This document shows positions 22,435 through 35,083 of a DNA stretch of 64,000 nt, in pieces. The first letter of the stretch is position 1; each line of letters opens with the position of its first letter. A program made the position numbers and the translations under genes. The stretch is from Paenibacillus sp. E222 (GTDB lineage Bacteria > Bacillota > Bacilli > Paenibacillales > Paenibacillaceae), in assembly GCF_013401555.1 (NCBI RefSeq), contig NZ_CP058552.1:1550001-1614000 (forward strand), given 5' to 3'. Under the pieces are notes generated by a model. That model was not told the origin of the DNA. It saw nothing but the letters and a program-made list of their open reading frames with translations, and did no database searches.

Positions 22435-22629
22435 CTAACGAACCTAGTGAGCGTTAAATGGCGATTTAGCGCGGAATGCAAAATGTAACGAACTTCAGTG
22501 AAGTTATTCCGATGCAAACCTGCCAAAACCTGCGAAAGCACATACAGATTGGGATAATAACGTTTCTACGATTCGTTAAACCGCAGACTTGTAGGAAATG
22601 GAGCTATTAACGTGTGTAAGATTCGTTAG
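22435..22629. repeat. 195-nt four-module intergenic element, copy 1
   Basis: Four 22-nt modules of the form YTAACGAA-N10-GTTA lie at 22435-22456 and 22485-22506 (plus) and at 22558-22579 and 22608-22629 (minus). Each module is a loose palindrome (TAACG...CGTTA), and the whole element is symmetric in orientation. The offsets 50, 73 and 50 nt are identical to those in the second copy at 34889. It fills most of the gap between nikE and the convergent oxidoreductase gene (22281-22884). Function unknown. Confidence 0.75.
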
Positions 22630-22650
22630 ACCATAATGAAAATGAATGCT

Positions 22651-22702
22651 AAAAGGGTTGTCCCCTACGCCTTGAACAAGACGTAGGGGACAACCCTTTT
22701 TT
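22651..22702. terminator. Bidirectional terminator with a perfect 19-bp stem
   Basis: The arms 22651-22669 (AAAAGGGTTGTCCCCTACG) and 22682-22700 pair perfectly around a 12-nt loop, with a T-run on the plus strand and T-rich sequence on the minus strand. It separates the nik operon from the convergent oxidoreductase gene. Confidence 0.85.
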
Positions 22703-22884
22703 GTACCTGGGAATAGGCACATTTCCTGCTTTCTGATATAAGTTAAACTAAAATTGCACTTACGCCACTCGGATTACAGGACTACCTTTGAATTACGCTT
22801 ATCCCCAGATTTTTGATTTAACTTATAAGGTGAACATCTGGAGAGAAGCCTATACTTCCGATGAGGATTTCTTGCAGAAATCTT

Positions 22885-23466
22885 TTACCCCATCTTCCGC
22901 CCAAGCTGCTCAATCTTCTCCAGCCATTTCTTTCTCTGTTCCTCGGACTGTTTGCCGACCAGATCTACAGGTGTTATACGCACAGGTTTGATGCCTGTTA
23001 GAGCAAAGGTGGAGATCTTCATCATTTTGTGTGCAGGTTCACCCTGGAACCATTTGTAGTACCAGTTCGGACCATCCATGGTGGTGATCATGCGTGCGGT
23101 GCGACCTTTGAGCAGTTGATCCGGGAAAAGTTTACCTTTGTGATACTTGAAGGCATAGCCTGGCATGAAGATGCGGTCGATGAATCCTTTGAACAAAGCT
23201 GGTGGTCCTCCCCACCAAATCGGAAACACCCATACGAGATGCTCTGCCCATTTAATCGCCTCTTGGGCTTCCAGCAAGTCGGGTTCGAGGGGAAGTTTAT
23301 TTCGGTATCCACCGGCTAAATTCATGTTAAATTCCAACTCATTGAGGGTGATCATGCGAACCTCGGCACCTGCCTGCACAGCACCTTTACGATAGGCTTC
23401 GGCGATTGCGCCATTGTAACTGGGGGAGACGGGGTTGCCTTGAATAATTAATATTTTCTTCATCAT
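22885..23466 (-). CDS. NAD(P)H-dependent flavodoxin-fold oxidoreductase (quinone reductase family)
   Basis: The 193-residue protein has the flavodoxin-like fold of NAD(P)H quinone oxidoreductases (YwrO/MdaB/KefF type). It begins KKILIIQGNPVSPSYN (FMN phosphate loop), then HLVWVFPIWWGGPPALFKGFIDRIF, TTMDGPNWYYKW and a basic tail. It probably reduces quinones or electrophiles with FMN. Upstream lies an operator-like site shared with the neighbouring TetR gene, so induction by an electrophile is likely. Confidence 0.85.
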   Translation of the reverse strand: MMKKILIIQGNPVSPSYNGAIAEAYRKGAVQAGAEVRMITLNELEFNMNLAGGYRNKLPLEPDLLEAQEAIKWAEHLVWVFPIWWGGPPALFKGFIDRIFMPGYAFKYHKGKLFPDQLLKGRTARMITTMDGPNWYYKWFQGEPAHKMMKISTFALTGIKPVRITPVDLVGKQSEEQRKKWLEKIEQLGRKMG

Positions 23467-23486
23467 GATGACACGTCCTGACTATT

Positions 23487-23504
23487 TTAGTTAATGAACA
23501 CTAA
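23487..23504. promoter_or_regulatory. TetR operator upstream of the oxidoreductase gene
   Basis: TTAGT-N8-ACTAA lies 21 nt before the oxidoreductase start. The same half-sites with the same 8-nt spacing occur upstream of the TetR gene. Confidence 0.65.
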
Positions 23505-23512
23505 CCTCATGT

Positions 23513-23539
23513 GCAAAAAGAAAAGGTCACGAATGACCT
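23513..23539 (-). terminator. Terminator of the TetR gene
   Basis: On the minus strand AGGTCA and TGACCT pair around a 4-nt loop, followed by a T-tract. It separates the TetR gene from the oxidoreductase gene. A second hairpin without a T-run (CGTTCAGG/CCTGAACG) lies at 23546-23566. Confidence 0.7.
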
Positions 23540-23673
23540 GGCCATCGTTCAGGAACCTCCTGAACGTTAGTTGAAGCCGGAGCTTCTATTTTAAACGAAT
23601 GATTTTACACTGGAGCACTGGGCGATTAGATGCATCTCTTGATCCCTGACAGACCGGAACAACCTTCGCAAAG

Positions 23674-24285
23674 CTATTCGGCCCGCTTCTGCCCCATATT
23701 AGTTGCCCCCTGTCCCAACATCGATGCGAGTCGGTGAACGGTCTCTCCAGTGTATGGAACAAGCAGCTCTGGCAGTTCACCTTGCATACTGGATACGGCC
23801 AGACGCGTAATTGCACCAATGACCAGAACGGCTGTGAGCCGTGAATCCTGATCTGGTAGTTCACCTCGCATAATCCCCTGATCGATAAGATCAATCAACG
23901 CATCAAGCGGCTGACGGTAATCCTCGCTGCTTCCAGCTTCAATGAAAATCTCATGATTTTGTGAAATCAGCAGCAGTCCGTAGGGATCTTCATCATGCAG
24001 GTGGAGAACTTCGGTAATCAGTTGCCGGAAGCGTTCCAGCACCGGACCTTCCTGGCGAACATACCCGTCAATCAAGGCGGTATAGTCCGCGCAATATTGG
24101 GTGAAGGCCTCAAGGGCAACAGCATCTTTGTTTTTAAAATGTTTGTAGATCGCCGCATCCGTTACTCCGGCGGCGTCACCGATCTCTTTGACGGAAATGC
24201 CGTCAACGCCTTTGGTTGCAAACAAGCGCATCGCCGCTTGTAGGATGTCTTTCTTTTTGCTGTCTACATGAGGTTTGTTCTTCAT
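23674..24285 (-). CDS. TetR-family transcriptional repressor
   Basis: The 203-residue protein has an N-terminal TetR helix-turn-helix (ILQAAMRLFATKGVDGISVKEI, DAAIYKHFKNKDA) and a helical ligand domain. It sits upstream of the oxidoreductase gene on the same strand, separated by a terminator. The operator TTAGT-N8-ACTAW is found 7 nt before its own start and before the oxidoreductase, which supports autoregulation and control of the neighbour. Confidence 0.88.
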   Translation of the reverse strand: MKNKPHVDSKKKDILQAAMRLFATKGVDGISVKEIGDAAGVTDAAIYKHFKNKDAVALEAFTQYCADYTALIDGYVRQEGPVLERFRQLITEVLHLHDEDPYGLLLISQNHEIFIEAGSSEDYRQPLDALIDLIDQGIMRGELPDQDSRLTAVLVIGAITRLAVSSMQGELPELLVPYTGETVHRLASMLGQGATNMGQKRAE

Positions 24286-24291
24286 GATTTT

Positions 24292-24309
24292 ATAGTAAGT
24301 GATTACTAA
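24292..24309. promoter_or_regulatory. TetR operator upstream of the TetR gene
   Basis: Read on the minus strand this is TTAGT-N8-ACTAT, within the palindrome TAGTAAGTGATTACTA (24293-24308). It matches the site at 23487. Confidence 0.7.
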
Positions 24310-24518
24310 CTAAATTGCAACTGCCATTTTGAAATCTCTTATTTAATGCTACGAAAAGTGCTGTCGCTCAAAGCTTGCAGGCTTGTGAACGGCAACGTAT
24401 GATGGATAGAAATAATAACGGATAGACGGGCGCGGAGCATGGGCAGATGTAGGTCTGCAAAGGCAAGCATGAATAGAACCAGCTCCAAGCCTGGGGAACG
24501 AAATGGAAGGTGAATGGC

Positions 24519-25490
24519 GTGAATGAAGACGTGCAGGCGCATCGCTGGGTGACTCCCGCAGGGACGTTGAATGAACAATATATAACAAGCAGGGAACGGC
24601 TCTACAAAGGAATGAATGGTAAATATGTGGAGCGTTTCACTGTTCATACCGGGGAAAGTTATATTTTCAAACCACTGACCAATCCCGCACAATATGGACG
24701 TGAACAATGGATGTCCAGGCATGTGCTGTCTGTACTGCCGCCCATATATCCAGAATTAATTGCTGCATCAGACTGCGAAATTGACGCGGAACAGAGCTGG
24801 ATCATCTATGAGGATCTGGGTGAACTGGTGCATGATTCGCGGGAAGAGACGATGCTGGCTGCTGCTGTACATATGGCGGAGTGGCACACGTTATCTGTTA
24901 CAGATTGGGGTGAACTGCCCCGGGTGGGTCAGAAACCGCCAATCCGAGACATGCTGGATGATCTGCTTGAGCAGAAGGAATCCACTGCTGATTTGTTGTC
25001 CAAGCTGGAGATCACGCTGTCACCATCGGATTGGCACAACATCGCCGCGCTAATCCATACGGCAGAGGAGGAGTTACCTCGTGTTTTGTGTCACGGAGAT
25101 CTCCATCCCGGCAACATGGCGAATGTGAATGGCAGGCTGGTAATTATCGATTGGGAGCATGCGCATCTGAATACGGCTCTCTGGGACGTGTATCATCTGG
25201 TGGATCTATCACATCCACTGTTCCCGAGAACCGTTACGTCTGAGCTGCGGGAGCGGATGATCGATGTTTATCTGGACGGGCTGGAGCGGCATAGCGTTCA
25301 GGTTGACCGGGTTTCTTTTAAAAGGTGGTACTGTGCATATGCCATTGTATTCTCGCTCTGGATGCTGCGTCTGATTGATGGAGATCTGAGAAGTGTAGAC
25401 TGTGTATGGCCGGAGGAACAGCTGCGGAACCAGCGGCACGAGACGGCAAAGACGCTGGAACAGTGCATGAAGCAGTGTTGTAGGGAATAG
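24519..25490 (+). CDS. Aminoglycoside-phosphotransferase-fold kinase (APH family)
   Basis: The roughly 323-residue protein has an APH/choline-kinase fold. The catalytic loop reads VLCHGDLHPGNM and the metal-binding motif IIDWEHAHL, both near residues 190-215. The N-terminal lobe includes SYIFKPL, with the probable ATP lysine. Small-molecule phosphorylation is expected, but the substrate cannot be read. GTG 24519 lies 8 nt after GGAAGG. The next gene, a glycosyltransferase, starts 18 nt after its stop, so the pair may act on one sugar compound. Confidence 0.75.
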   Translation: MNEDVQAHRWVTPAGTLNEQYITSRERLYKGMNGKYVERFTVHTGESYIFKPLTNPAQYGREQWMSRHVLSVLPPIYPELIAASDCEIDAEQSWIIYEDLGELVHDSREETMLAAAVHMAEWHTLSVTDWGELPRVGQKPPIRDMLDDLLEQKESTADLLSKLEITLSPSDWHNIAALIHTAEEELPRVLCHGDLHPGNMANVNGRLVIIDWEHAHLNTALWDVYHLVDLSHPLFPRTVTSELRERMIDVYLDGLERHSVQVDRVSFKRWYCAYAIVFSLWMLRLIDGDLRSVDCVWPEEQLRNQRHETAKTLEQCMKQCCRE

Positions 25491-25508
25491 AAATGAGGGG
25501 TGCAGAAC

Positions 25509-26507
25509 ATGCGTAAAGTAGGACTCGTAATGCGTAAAATTCAATTCACGGAGGCCCAGGGCCCGCGCGTATTTGCAGATCGTCTGAAGCAGATCGGGCT
25601 GGAGCTGGGCGTGGAGATTGTGTTCATCTCGCCTGAGCGCCATGTCAGCGGGTATGACTGGTTGCCGGGTTATGAGCATGAGAAGGGCGACCTGGTGAAC
25701 TATGATATTGTACTGGACCAGATATATAGCCAAAATATAGAGCATGTCATCTACACCGTATCCGGGTTTACGTTCCTGAAGATGTTTTTACCGAAGAGTG
25801 TGTTGTTCCCGCACAGCTTTCCCGACCCGGCGCTGACGGGGTACGAGATGATGAAGCCATTTTATACGATGGTGGATAAAGCAATTGTGCAGACAGAGTT
25901 TTTGAAAACGGAACTGGGCCGCAATTTTGGTGTACATGACGTGAACGTCATCCCGATTGGCTTCAGCGAAGAGCTCGCAAACCGCCACTACGACCCGAGT
26001 CAGGTTGTGCATAATCGCGTGCTCTGGATCGGTCGGGATGAAGCGAATCGTCGCCCGGATCTGGTGCTGGAATACGCCCGGCAGAACCCGGACAAGGAAG
26101 TATACATGGTATTCGGCGGTCGCCGCTATGAGGAAAGCATGAAGAAATACAACATTCCGGACAATGTAAAATTGCAATTCGCGCTGACACAGGATGAAGT
26201 ATTTACCCTGATGAACTCGTCCAAGGTGTATTGGAGCTGTTCTGCCTTTGATACGTTTGCAATGCCGCTGACCGAAGCGATGGCGATGGGCAAAATGGTG
26301 GTGAAACCGGAGCATGCCTGCTATGGTCACATTCGATCAACGCATGCCTTTGCAGGCAACGAGGATAACTGGTTTGAACTGGTGAACATGGCTGCTGCTG
26401 CGCCGCGCAGTGTGTCGGAAGACAACCGGGAGTATGCCTTTGGTGCTTTTTCGCGCACGATCATGAAAGAAGGATATCGGGAGTTCTTTGCCAACTGGTT
26501 GAAGTGA
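25509..26507 (+). CDS. Family 4-type glycosyltransferase
   Basis: The 332-residue protein has a GT-B pattern. The N-terminal domain ends near VIPIGFSEE, and the C-terminal domain has RVLWIGRDEANRRPDLVLE, VYMVFGG and the nucleotide-sugar-binding stretch DTFAMPLTEAMAMGK. There is no signal peptide. ATG 25509 follows GAGGGG; GTG 25500 is too close to the ribosome site. It is cotranscribed with the kinase-like gene. Donor and acceptor are unknown. Confidence 0.75.
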   Translation: MRKVGLVMRKIQFTEAQGPRVFADRLKQIGLELGVEIVFISPERHVSGYDWLPGYEHEKGDLVNYDIVLDQIYSQNIEHVIYTVSGFTFLKMFLPKSVLFPHSFPDPALTGYEMMKPFYTMVDKAIVQTEFLKTELGRNFGVHDVNVIPIGFSEELANRHYDPSQVVHNRVLWIGRDEANRRPDLVLEYARQNPDKEVYMVFGGRRYEESMKKYNIPDNVKLQFALTQDEVFTLMNSSKVYWSCSAFDTFAMPLTEAMAMGKMVVKPEHACYGHIRSTHAFAGNEDNWFELVNMAAAAPRSVSEDNREYAFGAFSRTIMKEGYREFFANWLK

Positions 26508-26641
26508 AACTTGCAGATGCAGGCTCTAGCGACGTCGGGTTCTATTGGAGCAACAATAGCAACGAGGCAACAGGGCCAGAAGGACAGGTGCAGGATGAGC
26601 AGCCAGTGGTGAATAGAAAACGGAGACAAAAAGGCTTCTAA
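26504..26641 (+). CDS. Possible small protein overlapping the glycosyltransferase stop
   Basis: A GTG start overlaps the glycosyltransferase stop as GTGA, and a 45-codon frame follows. It encodes a hydrophilic Asn/Ser/Glu-rich protein with a basic tail (NRKRRQKGF). The 4-nt overlap is the usual form of coupled translation. The stop lies exactly where a tandem 12-bp repeat and the terminator begin. I recognise no family, and a chance frame is possible. Confidence 0.35.
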   Translation: MKLADAGSSDVGFYWSNNSNEATGPEGQVQDEQPVVNRKRRQKGF

Positions 26642-26684
26642 AAAGGCTTCTAATTGGGCAGGGCACCCGATCAGGAGCCTTTTT
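26640..26684 (+). terminator. Terminator after the glycosyltransferase genes
   Basis: AAAAAGGCTTCT (26640-26651) pairs with AGGAGCCTTTTT (26673-26684) apart from one mismatch. The left arm is an exact tandem duplicate of 26628-26639. Confidence 0.75.
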
Positions 26685-26826
26685 GTTGTGCCGAAATCAA
26701 TAGGTGTTCCGATAGCGCTGAACAGGAGCTGTATTAATTTGACCCGAATGAAATGGACATATTTTAGTATTTATCAAAAAAAGGCCGGGTGTTATGCTTT
26801 GGGCGTAAGGAAGGAGTGATTTCCTA

Positions 26827-28878
26827 ATGAAAGCGCTATCTGCGAGAGAATATCAGATTCTGCATTTTCTGTTGGAGCGTCGGGATTTCGTTCCGGTCAA
26901 AGAAATGGCCAGTCAGATGAACTGGTCTGAAAAAACGATTTACAGGGAACTGAATGCGTTGGAGCACAGCTTGAATCGTCGGGGGATTCACCTTGAACGA
27001 AAGCCGGGAACGGGGATTGCACTTGCATTAACGCAGGAGCAGACGATGGAGCTGAGAAGCACGCAGTTGATGCCTGGAAAAAAGATGGTGCCCAGCCTTT
27101 CAGTCGAGGCCAGAAGAATCAAAATATTGACGAATCTGCTATACGATTCTCCTGAGGAAACCTCCATCAACAAGCTGTCGGAGCAATATTTTATTGGTAA
27201 GGCATCGATTGTGAATGATCTCAAGGCGATTGAAGAACGAATTGCACCTTTTCAACTGCGGCTGGAGAAAAGTCAGCTTGGGACCCGTCTTATCGGATCA
27301 GAGATCGATATCCGCAAAGCGATGGCCTCTCTGATTCACGAGCTTGTCAATGAGGACCAGAAGCAGGAAGAGGAGCATGCACAGGAGCATGAAGCCCGGA
27401 TCGATGGCAATACGCTAGGAGAGCTGGTCAGGCATTTTGGCTCCGATCCGGTAGAAGGTATACGGTGCATTCTGGAAGAAACCGAGCAGCAATTAGGGTA
27501 CACCATTGGTGATCCATATTACATCAACCTGCTGACTCACCTGCTGATTTGCATCCGCAGATTGAAGAATGGCAAAGCCCTTCGCCTGGCCGACGGTGTT
27601 TCTGAGCATCCGGTAACCGATCCCAGTGTGTATGCCATTGCCAAAAATATGGCCGCAAGGATCAGTGAGCAATGCGAGCTGGAGCTGCCGGGAGAAGAAA
27701 TTTATTTTATCTATCAGTATCTGATCTCTTCAGGCATGAGCTTGCCTTCCCTGAACCTGGAGCTGTCGGGTCTGATGGACAAGGCGTGTGCACAGTCCCA
27801 AGCGATGGTCCGGGAATTGATTCAGACTGTGTCCGTAATGATTCATCGTGACCTCACAACAGACGAGCAGTTGTATAAGGGACTGATCATTCATTTCAAA
27901 CCGATGCTGAACCGTCTCAAATACAACATCGCCATTCATAATCCTCTGCTGGAGGATATTCGCAGGGAGTATGCCGAGATTTTTACCTTGGTTAGCCTGG
28001 GAATGCTGCCCATTGCTGAGGCCTCCGGTTTAAACTCGTTCAGTGATGATGAGATCAGTTACCTGGTCCTTTATTTTCAGGCGTCCATTGAGAAAAACAG
28101 TAAAAAGAAAAAAGTCGTTCTGGTCTGCTCTACGGGAATAGGCACCTCCCATTTGCTGAAAAGCCGGATCAATCGTTCATTCCCTGAATGGGAGGTCGTG
28201 GACGTCATTTCAGCAAGCTGGTTCAAGCAAATGGAGGATTGGGCAGATATCGATCTGATCATATCGACCGTGAAACTGGAGCATCAGAATCTGCCGATTG
28301 TGTATGTGTCAGCACTCCTGAATGACACCGATGTCAGTCAAATCAAGGCCAAGCTTGATGAGGAAAGGGTCATTCCCGATCCCAACAAGATGCCGTCGTT
28401 TTCACTGCTCGAAGCGTACTTCCAGCCCTCTTGTTTCCATATGGAAACAAATACAAAAGAGCAGGCGGCAGAAGAGATAACATCCCGTAGGAAGCTGTTT
28501 GCATCCGTACTCACAGCCGCAGGTGCGGACGGTAACCTGCATAACCGAATGTTTGCCGAGGCCAGGCTGAACAAGCATTTGTCCATTTTCCTGCTGCGCA
28601 GTGAGCTGACCGCCAATCCGGTCGTCGGTTTTAATGTAACGAAGGGCGAAGCGGGAAAAGGCAAACTTGAAATTGTAATCGCTTTCTCTAACGACGGACC
28701 ATTCATTGAATTGTTGATGGAGATAAACAGCTTGTTCAAGTGCAAGTGGATATATGACCAGATTATGAGGGTGAACACACCTCTGGAGCTTGCAGAGATT
28801 TTACAATCCCGTCAGTCCGGCAAGTCCGGGCATACCCAGAAGGAGGAGACGTATGGATATCACCAAAATTATCAATGA
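26827..28878 (+). CDS. PRD-domain PTS-dependent transcriptional activator (MtlR/LicR type)
   Basis: The 683-residue regulator reads, in order: HTH_11 (about 1-60, VKEMASQMNWSEKTIYREL), a second HTH (about 95-170), PRD1 (about 195-300, H238), PRD2 (about 315-420, H356), an EIIB-like domain (about 428-510) with phosphocysteine C434 in VCSTGIGTSHL, and a C-terminal EIIA-like domain (about 525-662). The EIIA-like domain lacks a recognisable PHG-type active histidine. In PRD2, YLVLYFQASIE has Tyr where relatives usually have the second regulatory His. Phosphorylation by the PTS should tune its activity. Its 3' end overlaps the IIA gene by 26 nt. A near-perfect cre sequence (TGAAAGCGCTATCT) covers its start codon. 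Confidence 0.87.
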   Translation: MKALSAREYQILHFLLERRDFVPVKEMASQMNWSEKTIYRELNALEHSLNRRGIHLERKPGTGIALALTQEQTMELRSTQLMPGKKMVPSLSVEARRIKILTNLLYDSPEETSINKLSEQYFIGKASIVNDLKAIEERIAPFQLRLEKSQLGTRLIGSEIDIRKAMASLIHELVNEDQKQEEEHAQEHEARIDGNTLGELVRHFGSDPVEGIRCILEETEQQLGYTIGDPYYINLLTHLLICIRRLKNGKALRLADGVSEHPVTDPSVYAIAKNMAARISEQCELELPGEEIYFIYQYLISSGMSLPSLNLELSGLMDKACAQSQAMVRELIQTVSVMIHRDLTTDEQLYKGLIIHFKPMLNRLKYNIAIHNPLLEDIRREYAEIFTLVSLGMLPIAEASGLNSFSDDEISYLVLYFQASIEKNSKKKKVVLVCSTGIGTSHLLKSRINRSFPEWEVVDVISASWFKQMEDWADIDLIISTVKLEHQNLPIVYVSALLNDTDVSQIKAKLDEERVIPDPNKMPSFSLLEAYFQPSCFHMETNTKEQAAEEITSRRKLFASVLTAAGADGNLHNRMFAEARLNKHLSIFLLRSELTANPVVGFNVTKGEAGKGKLEIVIAFSNDGPFIELLMEINSLFKCKWIYDQIMRVNTPLELAEILQSRQSGKSGHTQKEETYGYHQNYQ

Positions 28879-29317
28879 ACGGTTGATCAAGCTGGATCTC
28901 CAGGCACGAACCAAGGATGAAGCCATTGAGGAGCTGGCAGATTTGCTGGAAAAGGACGGCGCCTTGTCCTCCAAGGAGGCTTTTATCAAGGATGTGTATT
29001 TAAGGGAGGAAGAAGGCCAGACGGGTCTGGAGAATCATGTCGCTATTCCTCACGGCAAATCAGCCGCTGTACTCAAAACCTCGCTTGCCATCGGGCGGAC
29101 AGCACATGCGCTTGAATGGGAAACGCTGGATGGCAAACCGGTGCATGTCATTATTATGTTTGCCGTACGGCTGGTGGATCGAAATACAACCCACATGAAG
29201 CTGCTGGTCCAGGTTGCAGAGATGCTTGCCGATGAGGAGGTGTTGGAGCGTTTGCTGCACGAGCCTGATCCGGCCATGATTATGGATCTGTTTGCGCGCA
29301 GGGAGAGTGTGTCGTAG
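28853..29317 (+). CDS. PTS fructose-family EIIA component
   Basis: The 154-residue EIIA of the fructose/mannitol family has its phosphohistidine in VAIPHGKS (H67). It takes phosphate from HPr and passes it to the separate EIIB encoded 63 nt downstream. ATG 28853 follows AAGGAGGAG; the earlier in-frame start at 28790 lies within the regulator gene and is rejected. Confidence 0.88.
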   Translation: MDITKIINERLIKLDLQARTKDEAIEELADLLEKDGALSSKEAFIKDVYLREEEGQTGLENHVAIPHGKSAAVLKTSLAIGRTAHALEWETLDGKPVHVIIMFAVRLVDRNTTHMKLLVQVAEMLADEEVLERLLHEPDPAMIMDLFARRESVS

Positions 29318-29380
29318 AACAGAGGGTATTACGATGTTGATTAAAAAGGAACGCACGACATCATATTTGGAGGGATACGG

Positions 29381-29698
29381 ATGAACATTGTAGCTGTAGC
29401 CGCTTGCACTGCAGGTATTGCCCACACCTATATTGCCAAGGAAAAATTGATCAAAGGTGCAAAGGCCCGCGGACATGAGATTAAAGTGGAGACTCAGGGA
29501 ACCATTGGCACAGAAAACGAGCTTAGCCGGGAAGAAATTCGAGATGCTGATGTGATTATAGTGGCCGCAGATATCAAGATTGGTGGAGAAGAACGGTTCA
29601 AAGGCAAACGAATCATTCGAGTGAAAACGGAAACGGTCATTAAAGCCCCGATTAAATTTATTGAAAAGGTGGAGCAGACTTTAGGCATATCCTCATAA
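29381..29698 (+). CDS. PTS fructose-family EIIB component
   Basis: The 105-residue stand-alone EIIB-Fru has its phosphocysteine in AACTAGIAHTYIA (C9). It transfers phosphate to the sugar carried by EIIC. EIIC begins 15 nt downstream. Confidence 0.9.
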   Translation: MNIVAVAACTAGIAHTYIAKEKLIKGAKARGHEIKVETQGTIGTENELSREEIRDADVIIVAADIKIGGEERFKGKRIIRVKTETVIKAPIKFIEKVEQTLGISS

Positions 29699-29713
29699 AA
29701 GGGAGGCAGGACG

Positions 29714-30805
29714 ATGAGCGCAAAATCCAATCACGCAGGTTCAGTCATCAAGGGCCATCTGTTAACAGGCATTTCCTATATGATTCCTCTGATCGTTGCA
29801 TCAGGTCTGTGTATTGCGCTGGGTCAGGTGTTGGGCGGGGCGGATGTGGGCAAGGCGGAAGGAACGATTCCGTATATGATCAACCAGATCGGCGGTTGGG
29901 GCATGGGGCTGGTTGTACCTTTAATCTGCGCAGCGATTGCGTATTCGATCTCTGACCGCCCAGGCATTGCTCCGGGATTGATTGTTGGTTTTATATGCAG
30001 TCAGATTCAGGCGGGGTTTATTGGTGGCATGCTGGGAGGTTTTCTGGTGGGTTACGTCGTGGTTGCCATCCGAAAATATGTGAAGCTGCCCAAGTCCATG
30101 CAGGGATTAATGCCTGTGCTTGTGATTCCGTTTCTGGCTACACTCATATCCGGTTTGGGTATCTTCCTCGTCATCGGTCAGCCGATTGTCTGGCTGCAGG
30201 ACAGCCTTACCCATGTGCTTGAATCGATGCAGGGCGGTTCCAAATTTGTATTGGGGGCCATTCTTGGCCTGATGGCGACCTTTGATTTTGGAGGACCTGT
30301 CAATAAAACGATGTCGCTGTTTGCGGATGGCATGTTGGTCCAGGGCATCTACGGGCCGGAGGCGGTCAAGTTTGTCGGCTCAATCATTCCACCACTCGGC
30401 ATTACCCTGTCGTATTTCCTGACGAGAAACAAATATACGGCGGCAGAAAAGGAATCATTAAAGGCAGCATTTCCCATGGGCATCTGTATGGTGACGGAGG
30501 GCGTCATTCCGATTGCCGCAAGAGATCTGATTCGGGTGGTGACTTCCTGTGTCATCGGCTCAGCGATAGCGGGCGGTCTGATTATGATCTGGGGTGTTGA
30601 AGCTCCGGTACCGCATGGCGGGCTGTTTGTTGTCCCTCTTTTCACGCATCCGTGGCTGTTTATGTTGTCGCTGCTCATTGGAACCAGCATCTGTGGCGTA
30701 ACCTTATCGCTGTTAAAGAAGCCGGTTACAGCGATGGATGAAGAATTCGACGATACCGAAGACGAAAGCGTAAGCTTCGACGACATTGTGTTCAAGGTGG
30801 AGTAA
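29714..30805 (+). CDS. PTS fructose-family EIIC permease
   Basis: The 363-residue membrane permease of the fructose PTS family begins GHLLTGISYMIPLIVASGL. The internal FDFGGPVNKTMSLFADGM and GICMVTEGVIPIAARD are characteristic sugar-channel motifs. About nine to ten membrane segments are expected. The acidic tail (DDTEDESVSFDDIVF) is short. With IIA and IIB as separate proteins it forms one complete transporter. The substrate is probably a ketose or a related sugar. Confidence 0.88.
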   Translation: MSAKSNHAGSVIKGHLLTGISYMIPLIVASGLCIALGQVLGGADVGKAEGTIPYMINQIGGWGMGLVVPLICAAIAYSISDRPGIAPGLIVGFICSQIQAGFIGGMLGGFLVGYVVVAIRKYVKLPKSMQGLMPVLVIPFLATLISGLGIFLVIGQPIVWLQDSLTHVLESMQGGSKFVLGAILGLMATFDFGGPVNKTMSLFADGMLVQGIYGPEAVKFVGSIIPPLGITLSYFLTRNKYTAAEKESLKAAFPMGICMVTEGVIPIAARDLIRVVTSCVIGSAIAGGLIMIWGVEAPVPHGGLFVVPLFTHPWLFMLSLLIGTSICGVTLSLLKKPVTAMDEEFDDTEDESVSFDDIVFKVE

Positions 30806-30897
30806 GGTTTGTTGAAGATGGGTCGGGCGCGAGCACACGCTGGTCATGTTTCATGACGAATTTTAATTTGAATACCATCCAAGGGAGATGTGAGCTT

Positions 30898-31806
30898 ATG
30901 TTGATTACGATGAAGGAATTGCTTAAAGCAGCCAAAGAACACAAATTTGCAGTAGGCGCGTTTAACGTAGCGGACAGCACCTTTTTAAGGGCGGTCATTG
31001 AGGAGGCGGAGCATTCCAATTCCCCGGCAATTATCGCCATTCACCCCACCGAGCTTGAATTTTTGACGGATGAATTTTTGGCGTATGCCAGACAGCGTGC
31101 ACTGGCCAGCCATGTTCCGCTGGTGATCCATCTCGATCATGGTGGCTCCATTGCTGATATCATCCGGGCGATCAAGTGTGGATTTACATCTGTCATGATT
31201 GACGGCTCTCTGCTCCCTTATGAAGAAAATGTGGCGTTGACCAAACAGGCGGTGGAGATTGCGCACGCTGCTTCCGTATCGGTTGAAGGGGAATTGGGCA
31301 CGATCGGTCAGACCGGCAACTCGATTGAAGGCGGCGTATCGGTGGTCACTTACACAGACCCGGCGCAGGCGCAGGATTTTGTAGCCCGTACGGGGATCGA
31401 TACACTCGCGGTGGCTATCGGTACAGCCCATGGCATATATCCAAAGCATATCAAACCGGAGCTGCAAATGGATATTCTGAAAGAAATCAGCCAATTGGTC
31501 GATATTCCTCTCGTTCTTCACGGTGGCTCTGCCAACCCGGATCAGGAGGTATCGGACTCCGTTCAGCTGGGCATTTGCAAAATTAATATATCCAGCGATA
31601 TGAAGCACGCATATTTCAAAAAAGCTCGCGAAATTTTAAGCACAACCGAGTTATGGGACCCTAACGCGATTTACCCGGAATGCATTACTGAGGCCCGAAA
31701 CGTCATTCGCTATAAAATGGAGCTGTTCCATTCGGTCGGCAAAGCCGATTTGTACAAAGGATTGCGTTATGAACAGCGCCAGGCTGAAAGTGTCAGCCTT
31801 TACTGA
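30898..31806 (+). CDS. Class II ketose-phosphate aldolase (GatY/KbaY/FbaA family)
   Basis: The 302-residue zinc aldolase has VIHLDHGGS (catalytic D80, zinc ligand H81), VEGELGTIG, GTAHGIYP and LHGGSA carrying the remaining metal and phosphate contacts. It cleaves a ketose (bis)phosphate to dihydroxyacetone phosphate and an aldehyde. ATG 30898 follows AAGGGAG by 10 nt; the upstream ATG at 30853 has no site. It is last in the PTS operon. No sugar-phosphate kinase is present in the operon. Confidence 0.87.
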   Translation: MLITMKELLKAAKEHKFAVGAFNVADSTFLRAVIEEAEHSNSPAIIAIHPTELEFLTDEFLAYARQRALASHVPLVIHLDHGGSIADIIRAIKCGFTSVMIDGSLLPYEENVALTKQAVEIAHAASVSVEGELGTIGQTGNSIEGGVSVVTYTDPAQAQDFVARTGIDTLAVAIGTAHGIYPKHIKPELQMDILKEISQLVDIPLVLHGGSANPDQEVSDSVQLGICKINISSDMKHAYFKKAREILSTTELWDPNAIYPECITEARNVIRYKMELFHSVGKADLYKGLRYEQRQAESVSLY

Positions 31807-31881
31807 GGCTTGCGCTTGCTGGTGACCAGGCGCAAGGAACCCTGAGTAATTGGCCAATCTCATCATCACATAAAAATCAGG

Positions 31882-31927
31882 AAGCCCTCATTCACGAACT
31901 CAAATGTTTGTGGAATGAAGGGCTTTA
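31882..31927 (+). terminator. Terminator of the PTS/aldolase operon
   Basis: AAGCCCTCATTC pairs with GAATGAAGGGCTT with a single bulge and is followed by TTT. A smaller hairpin without T-run (CTTGCGC/GCGCAAG) precedes it at 31809-31836. Confidence 0.75.
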
Positions 31928-32031
31928 TGATGTGATACAATCCTGTCATATTCATATCTCAAGTCAACGGATATCAGCTTCAGTTTGGAATCGTGAGAAA
32001 CGAGCTGAGCTTAGGAGAAGGGGGCGTTTCA

Positions 32032-32316
32032 ATGACAGGGCTAGTTCTATGGATACTCCTTGTTTGGGTTGGACTGCTGTTGATCGAGTGGGTGATCTAT
32101 CGATTGCAGGGACGTCGAATGACCGGGGTCCAATATATACTGCCATGTGTGGCCTTGCTCGGCGGAGCCGTTGTGATCATGATTAGCATCGATATTGGCG
32201 GGTGGAACGGCATTGGTTATGCCTTGCTTGGCGTATCGCTGGGTACAGCGGGGATGTTGACACTCATTACGGTGGCGATCATGGATGTGGTGTTTCGGCG
32301 TCGGAGAAGGAATTAA
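32032..32316 (+). CDS. Small three-helix membrane protein
   Basis: The 94-residue protein has three hydrophobic segments (about 2-20, 33-53, 58-82) and an Arg-rich tail (RRRRRN) placing the C-terminus inside by the positive-inside rule. ATG 32032 follows AGGAGAAGGGGG; the upstream ATG 31993 lacks a site. It loosely resembles YesK-type proteins, but I do not recognise it with confidence. The gene is monocistronic. Confidence 0.6.
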   Translation: MTGLVLWILLVWVGLLLIEWVIYRLQGRRMTGVQYILPCVALLGGAVVIMISIDIGGWNGIGYALLGVSLGTAGMLTLITVAIMDVVFRRRRRN

Positions 32317-32429
32317 TCGCAGGGTTAAGCTGCGGTACAGTTAGAGTGAATTGGGCGGACGGGATGGTTGCAGGAATACATTCGTCTGTGATATATTGAC
32401 ATTAATTATGACAAGGGAGGTGAAGACAG

Positions 32430-32591
32430 GTGAATCACGAGATGTTTAACAACCGTATTAGCCAGCTGCCGATTGCTATGGCTGGCATTGTTCATACTTT
32501 TCTGACCAACGGGAGAAGTCTGTCCAATTTTGAATATACGGAAGTTAACATTTGCGAGAAGATGCCTGCCTTGACCTCATTCGGACGATAA
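32430..32591 (+). CDS. 53-residue ORF upstream of the ABC-F gene, possible leader
   Basis: GTG 32430 lies 9 nt after a strong GGGAGG ribosome site. A 53-codon frame runs to TAA at 32589 and reads like a real protein start (MNHEMFNNRISQLPIA). Nineteen nt after the stop a terminator stem begins, and 98 nt after the stop the ABC-F gene starts. ABC-F resistance genes in Firmicutes are often controlled by ribosome stalling on an upstream ORF with a terminator, so a leader role is plausible. At 53 codons it is longer than the usual leader peptides, and it could be an independent small protein. Confidence 0.5.
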   Translation: MNHEMFNNRISQLPIAMAGIVHTFLTNGRSLSNFEYTEVNICEKMPALTSFGR

Positions 32592-32610
32592 GCAATTTTG
32601 CTTGAATTCT

Positions 32611-32646
32611 GAAGGGCCGCGGAGCTAACCTCCTGCGGCTCTTTTT
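32611..32646 (+). terminator. Terminator or attenuator before the ABC-F gene
   Basis: GCCGCGGAG pairs with CTCC-T-GCGGC around a 5-nt loop and is followed by CTTTTTG. A short AAGCAA/TTGCTT hairpin at 32590-32603 precedes it. It lies between the short ORF and the ABC-F ribosome site. Confidence 0.8.
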
Positions 32647-32689
32647 GTGTTGCGGTCAGGATCTTCCAATCCATAGGAGGAACCTTATT

Positions 32690-34681
32690 ATGATGATAAT
32701 TAGTGCACAACAACTGACCCAATACCACGGAGCACATCTGGTGCTGGATGGCATTGCGTTTGAAATTATGGAAGGCGACAAGGTCGCCTTGATCGGTCGC
32801 AACGGAAGCGGCAAAACGACATTAATGCGTCTGATGGCACGATTGAACCAGCCAGATGAAGGACAATTGATGATCAAGAAGGATACACGTATCGGATACG
32901 TTGCTCAGGTGCCGGAAGGAATGGACGATTACACGGTGCTTGATGTGCTGAGTCTTGGATTCAGAGAGCTTATGGCGTGCCGGAGTCAAATGAAGGATAT
33001 GGAGCAGCAGATGTCCGATCCAGACTGTGTAGCCGATCCGAACCAATTGGAACGACTGTTAAAGCGGTACGCGGCATTGCAGGAACAGTTTGAGCGTGAG
33101 GGTGGATATGAGATGGATGCCCGGATCGATCAGGTGGCGGGCGGTCTGGATATTGCCAAGGAGCATTACGGATGGCGTTTTGGTTCGTTGTCTGGTGGTG
33201 AACAGACCCGGGTTGTGCTGGCTTCACAGCTAATTGTAAGGCCCGATCTGTTATTGCTGGATGAGCCGACCAACCACCTTGATCTGGAGCGGGTGGAATG
33301 GCTGGAAGGATTTTTGCGCGAGTACACAGGTACGATTATCCTGATCTCACATGATCGCTACTTTTTGGACCGTGTAGCATCCCGGACGTTGGAGCTGGAA
33401 GATGGAGAAGCGCAGACGTCAGCTGGTGGTTATACGGAATATATGAAAGTGAAGGAACAACGACTGCTGCAGCAATTTGAGGCGTTCAAGGAGCAGCAGA
33501 AGGTGATCAAAAAAATGAAAGAAACGATCCGCCAACTGGAAGAATGGGGCCGAGTCGGGGGGAATGAAAAGTTCTTCCGGCGCGCGGCTTCGATGCGTAA
33601 AGCAATCGAACGGATGGAACAGGTGAAACGCCCGGTATTGGAGCGGCGTAACGCCGACTTCGATGTACATCCTACAGACCGTACGGGAAAACGGGTGGCC
33701 GTTATGGAACAGGTCGAAAAGGCTTATGGAGAACGCCAGATTCTGCGCGGTGTATCAGGATTACTCGAATATGGCGACAAAATTGCCCTTATTGGACGTA
33801 ATGGTTCAGGCAAAACAACGTTGTTCAAGCTGTTGCTTGGAGAGGAACAGCCAAGTGCAGGCAACCTGGAGTGGGGTGCACGTGTAGATGTTGGTTATCT
33901 GGCCCAGCAGGAGGAGCCTTCCAATCCGAAGCTGAATGTGCTGGAGTACTTCCGTCTGGAAGCGGGCGTGGAAGAAGGAGAAGCACGCGGCATTTTGGCC
34001 CGGTATCTATTCTATGGAGCAGATGTATTTCGCTCGGTAGGACAGTTATCCGGCGGTGAATGGACACGGCTAAGGCTTGCATTGCTGGTGCAGCGCAAGC
34101 CGAATGTGCTGCTGCTGGATGAACCGACCAACCATCTGGATATTGCTTCAAGGGAAGCACTCGAAGAGTCGCTGGTTGATTTCGAAGGCACGGTGCTTGC
34201 CATCTCGCATGACCGCTACTTCGTCAATCGACTCGCTTCCCGTGTGTGGGAACTGGAGAATGGGCGGATGACTGCTTATCTTGGAGATTATGAAGCCTAT
34301 CGCGAGAAGAAGCTTGATCTGCAAGCCCGCGCAGCCGCGACAAATCAGGCTACAGCAGGAGCGGAGACGTCACCCCGAGGTACTGCCGTTGGGGCAGGAG
34401 CAGGGGGTTCTTCTCACGGGACTGCTGCTGCGGCTGGATCAGGCAAGCTGAACAATCCTTGCTTCTTCCAGGCTGGGAACACTGGAAAGAGCCGTGACAG
34501 CGAGCGTACTGCGGAGAAGCTGGAGCAGGTCATGGCACACCTGGAGACCCGGCTCCGGGAACTGGATCAACAGCTCGAAACGGTGGCGAATGATCCGTTT
34601 GCTTTGGAACAGATGTGGAACGAGCGAGAGCAATTGTCGGCGGAATACAATGAACTGCTCGCCCAATGGGCCGAATTATAA
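32690..34681 (+). CDS. ABC-F family ATPase (ribosome-associated)
   Basis: The roughly 663-residue soluble protein has two ABC domains and no membrane segment. Domain 1 has Walker A GRNGSGKTTLMRL, signature LSGGEQTRV and LLLDEPTNHLDLE. A charged interdomain linker spans about 245-310. Domain 2 has GRNGSGKTTLFKL, LSGGEWTRL and LLLDEPTNHLDI. A Gly/Ala/Ser-rich linker and C-terminal coiled coil follow (EKLEQVMAHLETRLRELDQQ). ABC-F proteins act on the ribosome in translation or in antibiotic protection. ATG 32690 lies 9 nt after AGGAGG. The upstream short ORF and terminator suggest antibiotic-inducible attenuation. Confidence 0.87.
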   Translation: MMIISAQQLTQYHGAHLVLDGIAFEIMEGDKVALIGRNGSGKTTLMRLMARLNQPDEGQLMIKKDTRIGYVAQVPEGMDDYTVLDVLSLGFRELMACRSQMKDMEQQMSDPDCVADPNQLERLLKRYAALQEQFEREGGYEMDARIDQVAGGLDIAKEHYGWRFGSLSGGEQTRVVLASQLIVRPDLLLLDEPTNHLDLERVEWLEGFLREYTGTIILISHDRYFLDRVASRTLELEDGEAQTSAGGYTEYMKVKEQRLLQQFEAFKEQQKVIKKMKETIRQLEEWGRVGGNEKFFRRAASMRKAIERMEQVKRPVLERRNADFDVHPTDRTGKRVAVMEQVEKAYGERQILRGVSGLLEYGDKIALIGRNGSGKTTLFKLLLGEEQPSAGNLEWGARVDVGYLAQQEEPSNPKLNVLEYFRLEAGVEEGEARGILARYLFYGADVFRSVGQLSGGEWTRLRLALLVQRKPNVLLLDEPTNHLDIASREALEESLVDFEGTVLAISHDRYFVNRLASRVWELENGRMTAYLGDYEAYREKKLDLQARAAATNQATAGAETSPRGTAVGAGAGGSSHGTAAAAGSGKLNNPCFFQAGNTGKSRDSERTAEKLEQVMAHLETRLRELDQQLETVANDPFALEQMWNEREQLSAEYNELLAQWAEL

Positions 34682-34717
34682 GCCATACGTGTCAGCTGGA
34701 AGGGCATTGGCAACAGA

Positions 34718-34767
34718 ACATTAATAGAAATAGCAAAAACAATAACAATAGCAATAGAAATAGAATA
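34718..34767. repeat. A-rich low-complexity stretch
   Basis: Imperfect repeats of hexamer-like units (AATAGA, AATAAC, AATAGC) run for about 50 nt just after the ABC-F gene. Probably slippage-derived. Confidence 0.6.
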
Positions 34768-34790
34768 GGAACTAGCATCTTGAGCAAGCA

Positions 34791-34838
34791 AGGAGGCTGT
34801 CTCATAAGTCATGTATTGGCTTTGGGACAGTTTTTTTG
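34791..34838 (+). terminator. Terminator after the ABC-F gene
   Basis: CTGTCTCA pairs with TGGGACAG with one G-T pair and is followed by TTTTTTT. Confidence 0.75.
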
Positions 34839-34888
34839 CGCTTCAGGGACGACTCCCCATGATTCAACGGATTCAAGTATCCGACATT

Positions 34889-35083
34889 CTAACGAACCGA
34901 GGAGATCCTATTGGCTTCAAAATCCACACATCGAATATCTAACGAAACACAGAGATGTTAATCCCTCATAAAGTGGAGGTTATCGTTGTTTTAGGCCGTT
35001 TTTTTCCGTAATAACATCTCTCAGGTTCGCTAAAATCTGGATTTCACATGTAATCACCATATAAGGCTTGTGAGATTCGTTGA
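34889..35083. repeat. 195-nt four-module intergenic element, copy 2
   Basis: Modules lie at 34889-34910 and 34939-34960 (plus) and at 35012-35033 and 35062-35083 (minus). Two keep the full YTAACGAA-N10-GTTA form closely; the outer ones are degenerate at the GTTA end. The 50/73/50-nt offsets match copy 1 at 22435 exactly. It lies in the 557-nt gap between the ABC-F gene and the ATP-grasp operon. Confidence 0.75.

Follow-up and report, generated by a model that had tools for sequence, protein, structure and literature searches.

A widespread four-site intergenic element with fixed spacing in Paenibacillus and related genomes, a candidate for helically phased protein binding

In a 64,000-nt stretch of the chromosome of Paenibacillus sp. 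E222 (contig NZ_CP058552.1 of assembly GCF_013401555.1, positions 1,550,001 to 1,614,000; hereafter the window) we analysed a 195-nt intergenic element that is present in two copies, each composed of four 22-nt modules (YTAACGAA-N10-GTTA), two on the plus strand followed by two on the minus strand. The element belongs to a family that spans the order Paenibacillales, including other families of that order, and holds its modules at nearly invariant distances. We think it moderately probable that it acts at the DNA level, as a helically phased, four-site protein-assembly element which is kept by selection and occasionally spreads. No published description of it was found among the open-access PubMed Central papers listed by the searches, which do not cover subscription papers.

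The first-pass annotation of the window had described the two copies as sharing start-to-start module distances of 50, 73 and 50 nt, and both were recovered exactly so, with modules starting at 22435, 22485, 22558 and 22608 in copy 1 and at 34889, 34939, 35012 and 35062 in copy 2, on strands + + - - in each. Over the 48 fixed positions of four modules at 50/73/50 spacing, copy 1 scores 47 and copy 2 scores 43 (0, 1, 0, 0 and 2, 0, 1, 2 mismatches, module by module), against a top score of 31 among 300 single-base-shuffled windows; with these scores, and a family found throughout the order, a chance resemblance or the recent duplication of one locus has next to no probability. The element is directional, and the two copies in the window point in opposite directions. 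Compared unreversed, the spacers and centre of the two copies match at 9/28, 15/51 and 8/28 positions, about chance, but with copy 2 reversed they match at 17/28, 26/51 and 13/28, so the sequence drift is less extreme than had been described. The parts of both copies, and the hairpin beside each, are as follows.

22435..22456, + strand: copy 1 module 1 (outer), CTAACGAACCTAGTGAGCGTTA, 0 mismatches
22457..22484, no strand: copy 1 spacer 1, 28 nt
22485..22506, + strand: copy 1 module 2 (inner), GTAACGAACTTCAGTGAAGTTA, 1 mismatch
22507..22557, no strand: copy 1 centre, 51 nt (73 nt between the starts of the inner modules)
22558..22579, - strand: copy 1 module 3 (inner), 0 mismatches
22580..22607, no strand: copy 1 spacer 2, 28 nt
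22608..22629, - strand: copy 1 module 4 (outer), 0 mismatches
22651..22703, no strand: terminator-like hairpin with A-tract and T-tract, adjoining copy 1 and outside the 195-nt element (by eye)
34797..34838, + strand: terminator-like hairpin with T-run in the gap between the ABC-F gene and copy 2, a neighbour (by eye)
34889..34910, + strand: copy 2 module (outer, degenerate), 2 mismatches
34911..34938, no strand: copy 2 spacer, 28 nt
34939..34960, + strand: copy 2 module (inner), 0 mismatches
34961..35011, no strand: copy 2 centre, 51 nt
35012..35033, - strand: copy 2 module (inner), 1 mismatch
35034..35061, no strand: copy 2 spacer, 28 nt
35062..35083, - strand: copy 2 module (outer, degenerate), 2 mismatches

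A DNA search of the E222 genome (7.5 Mb, one contig) gave near-full-length matches at 65–71% identity, and 17 copies aligned without gaps across 195 columns supplied the sequence-only model used for the family searches, which found 47 near-full-length places and some fragments in the same genome. Four modules were present in 46 of the 50 E222 loci examined; L099–L102 had no four-module match and were left out, and L046 was kept despite a very weak third module. Among 64 loci from relatives, mostly top matches, 55 scored well, 43 of these being spaced exactly 50/73/50, and nine were dropped for a low score or no match. Across 39 genomes the model matched E222, 12 of 23 other members of the genus and 10 of 15 genomes outside it, some of them weakly. 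The shorter pattern TAACGRA-N43-TAACGRA occurred at least once in 185 of 296 genomes of the order, with a maximum of 139 + 131 times, whilst a reversed-pattern control gave 0–3 matches per strand, so that genomes with one or two matches are uninformative. In a scan of named genomes, 80 of the at least 117 stretches were considered, and all came from Paenibacillus, Cohnella, Saccharibacillus, Fontibacillus or Paenibacillaceae bins. Two side observations concern distribution: the element also lies in two IMG/VR viral contigs (L316 8803-8985 and L317 9541-9723), which may be phage or host DNA, and 36 of the 46 E222 copies fall in the chromosome half that surrounds position 1, a position not tied to the origin.

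The geometry proved to be constrained far beyond the two copies in the window. When distances of 40–60, 60–89 and 40–60 nt were allowed in the E222 genome, the first pair was spaced exactly 50 nt in 43 of 46 copies and the last pair in 45, the inner modules stood 73 nt apart in 34, 72 in nine and 63 in three, and 31 copies kept 50/73/50 throughout; the claim that no spacing had changed by even one base thus holds for copies 1 and 2 but not for the family (43, 34 and 45 of 46 exact). Further copies of the same spacing, which the annotation had proposed to look for, are therefore many, and their spacings do not vary freely. In 14 genomes, chosen mainly for their many 50-nt pairs, 1365 of 1822 TAACGRA pairs were exactly 50 nt apart when gaps of 28–58 (31 spacings) were allowed, the share ranging from 18/51 (G027) to 112/125 (G168), whilst the reversed pattern gave 187 pairs over all 31 spacings in the same genomes. 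With pairs fixed at 50 and the centre left free, 130 elements from named genomes had inner distances of 62 (8), 63 (97), 64 (2), 72 (11), 73 (11) and 114 (1), and none of 65–71, in a fetching step that allowed 54–84. In the other families examined (G024, G034, G027 and the weakly scored G029 and G032) the shorter centre prevails, as it does among most named records; close relatives of E222 have the longer one. The two classes, 62–64 and 72–73, differ by about one helical turn (at 10.5 bp per turn, 63 is 6.0 turns and 73 is 6.95), and because the centre lengths lie one turn apart, phased protein binding, which had been proposed from the two copies, fits the family. The same difference emerged anew within the genus in L036, where the centre is 41 nt and a relative with a 51-nt centre is identical at 139/144 positions outside it, so that 10 nt were lost; L047 and L366 may be another short-centre lineage. 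One old change of centre together with events of the L036 type is what phasing predicts, although it is no proof of phasing. As a separate observation, some modules in G027 are full palindromes (TAACGGA-N7-TCCGTTA) and are therefore read as sites on both strands.

Orthologous sites show which parts of the element are held. The clearest case is a site picked by gene, beside the ortholog of the gene adjoining L042, where the best 30 loci of 59 matching genomes were compared (L344 was cut short); choosing loci in this way removes most of the bias towards intact copies. The element was kept in 14 of the 30, with module remnants seen by eye in L336 and L351. Divergence at this site was 0.105 in modules, 0.218 in spacers, 0.196 in the centre and 0.365 and 0.352 in the flanks, and gap events per 100 aligned positions were 0, 0.51, 1.09 and 3.35 and 3.57, respectively: modules change least, spacers twice as fast and flanks faster still, and insertions and deletions are suppressed inside the element. 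In a set of 47 ortholog pairs, for which matching flanks were required on both sides and one-sided matches were left out, divergence was 0.106 in modules, 0.191 in spacers, 0.194 in the centre and 0.157 in the 200-nt, partly coding flanks, with 0.055, 0.062, 0.072 and 0.212 gap events per substitution. As in a dispersed array of protein sites, site sequence and spacing are conserved above their surroundings at orthologous places, and the best-supported reading of these comparisons is that selection maintains the sites and their distances, and not the spacer sequence.

This does not amount to absolute conservation, as gains, losses and truncations of copies occur. Six of the best 30 loci (39 matching genomes) have the full element at the copy-1 site, and among the 11 syntenic loci, of 13, that were read by eye, relatives show partial deletions and not empty sites: modules 3-4 are left in G011, G075 and G054, and module 4 in G008. 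That only parts remain in some relatives suggests that an ancestral element was deleted in parts. We had considered L007 and L021 as separate half units and rejected this, as relatives at the copy-1 site show halves where others carry the full element; L023, likewise taken for a half-element, is one end of the full copy L053. At the copy-2 site four of the best 30 loci (58 matching genomes) have the element, L293, whose flanks are unrelated, being one of the four; E222 and G257 carry copy 2 and G227 lacks it, although the neighbouring gene in G227 is 92% identical.

The modules themselves carry signs of a sequence-specific protein. In 128 of 129 elements (the element with the 114-nt centre left out) the four modules share one base at the R of TAACGRA, where 24 such elements would be expected were the modules independent, shared descent being ignored. 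By eye, the 13 pairs listed for G105 comprise eight GGA, five GAA and none mixed, and the 12 listed for G234 one GGA, 11 GAA and none mixed. Unmixed site types are as expected of one sequence-specific protein, or two. Inner and outer modules also differ, as they might in an ordered complex, and could be told apart in 167/184, 71/80 and 74/80 cases within the genus. A search for lone modules in E222 gave 152 matches against 58 for a control pattern; amongst 100 of the 152 that were listed, none pointed to a gene for an autoregulated binding protein.

Taken module by module, the + + - - order is palindromic, and the annotation had offered selection on structure as one explanation of the geometry; in this case the element would be a structured RNA (a small RNA or an element of a 3' untranslated region) whose inverted module pairs fold into a long hairpin. 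Some results point that way. In the first 17 copies, arm complementarity relative to shuffled partners was borderline for modules 2+3 (P 0.05, inner part 0.04; modules 1+4 P 0.80), and a pooled set of 63-type elements had an excess of arm complementarity (z 8.5 and 10), with z 3.5 within each of modules 1 and 2. The signal for modules 2+3 was gone at 46 copies, the pooled 73-type set had no arm excess (z 1.2 and -1.4), and shuffling partners within genomes gave none in E222 (n=46), G016 (n=20), G023 (n=20) or G034 (n=13); the centre is mostly of the longer type in the first three of these genomes and of the shorter type in G034. Because it is absent within genomes, we set the pooled 63-type signal aside and read it as reflecting the motif type of whole genomes. 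RNAalifold gave a consensus fold of seven pairs with no compensatory changes, folding-energy z-scores were ordinary (-1.34 and -0.69), and a comparison of the window with Rfam at gathering cut-offs gave no match, while in eight loci even E values up to 5 brought up nothing credible. A terminator-like hairpin, seen by eye, also separates copy 2 from its upstream gene. With arms that do not covary within genomes, an unremarkable fold and no Rfam match, selection on a fold is not supported and a structured RNA is improbable; as a known kind of structured RNA family the element was rejected, neither covarying pairs within genomes nor an Rfam match having been found.

Copy gain bears on a rival of greater weight, that of a miniature mobile element whose modules are sites for a trans-acting transposase or recombinase, the geometry being a need of that enzyme and old copies decaying. 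Copies are numerous and dispersed, and seven in E222 (L026, L027, L029, L031, L032, L034 and L036) share ~40 nt of left and ~65 nt of right flank with sharp ends, their elements being up to 91% identical; since these sharply ending flanks include a terminator, a unit of ~300 nt seems to have moved within the genome. The verdict that the element is not recently transposed was too strong for this subfamily. The presence of copy 2 in E222 and G257 and not in G227, and local clusters in which copies are 84–97% identical (L148, L199 and L180), likewise fit mobility. Such an element should, however, be free of constraint after insertion, and here orthologous sites in diverged species retain both the modules and the length; a fixed centre is also unexpected between two transposon ends. 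No target duplication was obvious by eye at the empty copy-2 allele of G227 or in the flanks of the seven copies, and no transposase or parent element was noticed by eye in the open reading frame lists of two further regions (16 and 14 kb), no genome-wide search having been made. We regard this explanation as unlikely. Two side observations belong with the spreading copies. The flanks of the seven-copy subfamily (GGGCTGTC.../...GGGACATCCC) are terminator-like, and this flank may itself be a dispersed repeat travelling with the element; clusters comprise two or three elements ~250–420 nt apart (L148 2628-3641, L199, L180 and G024 C1 411034-411765).

Among known mobile families, miniature inverted-repeat transposable elements such as bcr1 of the Bacillus cereus group are similarly short, non-coding and present in many copies with inverted ends and some spread of units, and the outer modules here are indeed inverted copies at the termini; the present element differs in its conserved sites and spacing at orthologous places, and no target duplication was obvious by eye. 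The ends of phage Mu and Tn7 carry repeated, inverted 22-bp transposase sites. The ~22-bp size and inverted orientation are shared, but the inner distance here is fixed at 62–64 or 72–73, too short for a transposase gene. Repetitive extragenic palindromic (REP) sequences and the bacterial interspersed mosaic elements built from them (BIMEs) are dispersed and intergenic, with inverted units at regular spacing, and are described as binding sites for several proteins (PMC2817692). A Gram-positive counterpart of these, spread by a REP-associated tyrosine transposase, would account for numerous intergenic, paired, inverted units of alternating orientation and regular spacing that are few in divergent gaps, and E222 has one match to the Y1 transposase family (PF01797). 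This transposase does not track the element: no PF01797 match was found in the element-rich genomes G016, G023, G024, G029, G032 and G034, and matches occurred in G007, G009, G018 and G019, genomes without a match to the element model, so it was rejected as the mobiliser. In place of a palindromic stem-loop the element has four 22-bp sites in a fixed 50/63 or 73/50 geometry, whose ends are only partly complementary and whose arms do not behave as stem-loops in the within-genome tests, and we consider this counterpart very improbable.

In the phased protein-assembly reading that we favour, a sequence-specific protein would bind the four 22-bp sites in their + + - - arrangement; the imperfect dyad made by the module ends, TAACG...CGTTA, suggests that this protein would probably be a dimer. 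With pairs held 50 bp apart and inner sites about six or seven helical turns apart, a folded complex with two-fold symmetry could form, and selection would retain sites and distances, not spacer sequence, with occasional gain or loss of copies. Its role in the chromosome might, for example, be architectural, or that of a boundary between transcription units. A bolder version, in which the element is a landmark across this bacterial order, a phased docking element where a putative protein of shifting specificity folds a complex between transcription units in the manner of an insulator or anchor, is offered tentatively, as possible rather than probable; on that version some genomes, G105 for one, would seem to operate a TAACGAA and a TAACGGA system in parallel, with no mixing in the pairs seen there. 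Several points weigh against the reading. One ortholog, L343, has a 76-nt centre, the geometry is broken in L365 and L368 (L367 is cut by a contig end), and 50 bp corresponds to 4.76 turns at 10.5 bp, not an integer. Four of 150 listed pairs mix TAACGAA and TAACGGA by eye (G025, G032, G175 and G214), and copies of shared descent within a species would likewise be uniform in site type. The distinction of inner from outer modules, for which related copies were retained, is weaker elsewhere (39/52 in G034, three of 16 loci being left out, and 270/420 in the named 62/63-type set). Most of the 47 ortholog pairs were chosen since both copies match the model and are biased towards intact copies, their flanks, some coding, diverge less (0.157) than their spacers (0.191), and the least biased test of constraint is the single gene-picked site. 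Of 23 further genomes in the genus, 11 have no match to the model, so the element is dispensable, and the nearby gaps of at least 250 nt with which its gene context can be compared number only 20 (4 convergent, 10 tandem and 6 divergent).

Chromosomes carry short protein sites that are dispersed in many copies and kept by selection, including the chromosome-organising parS, matS and Noc sites. The resemblance lies in many chromosomal copies of a short, here putative, protein site under selection, but those are single palindromes and the present element is a four-site phased array for which binding is predicted. Dozens of non-coding copies per genome, spaced with near base-pair fidelity in many members of a soil and plant order, are signs of a DNA-binding system as yet unstudied. 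With centre lengths that differ by one turn, phasing becomes sharply testable, and the two site types offer a route to a candidate protein by genome comparison; were the element architectural, it would be a Gram-positive example of chromosome organisation between convergent genes.

The element sits mostly downstream of genes. By simple, crude open reading frame calls, 27 of the 46 E222 copies lie between convergent genes, 17 between tandem and two between divergent genes, compared with 11, 54 and 12 of 77 nearby gene pairs. Copy 1 lies between convergent genes for an ABC transporter ATPase and a flavodoxin-like oxidoreductase, and copy 2 downstream of a gene for an ABC ATPase that also has extension and C-terminal domains. 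Of the 46 copies, 20 have a terminator-like hairpin no more than 250 nt away and none has one inside, whilst control stretches 750–1000 nt away, mostly coding, have them in 2/46 on the left and 0/46 on the right. For the window copies, which the annotation had placed beside strong terminators, long hairpins with T-runs are indeed seen by eye, one just past the end of copy 1 (about 22651-22703) and one ahead of copy 2 (about 34797-34838), but a terminator scan limited to loops of 8 nt found none near copy 2 and near copy 1 only a short one at 22685-22698, the inner part of the long hairpin. The rest of the copy-1 gap, 22793-22885 (CTTATCCCCAGATTTTT..., ...TTCTTGCAGAAATC), resembles by eye sequence at another site, with look-alikes in L353, L354 and L356, three relatives without the element there, and is perhaps a second interspersed repeat family.

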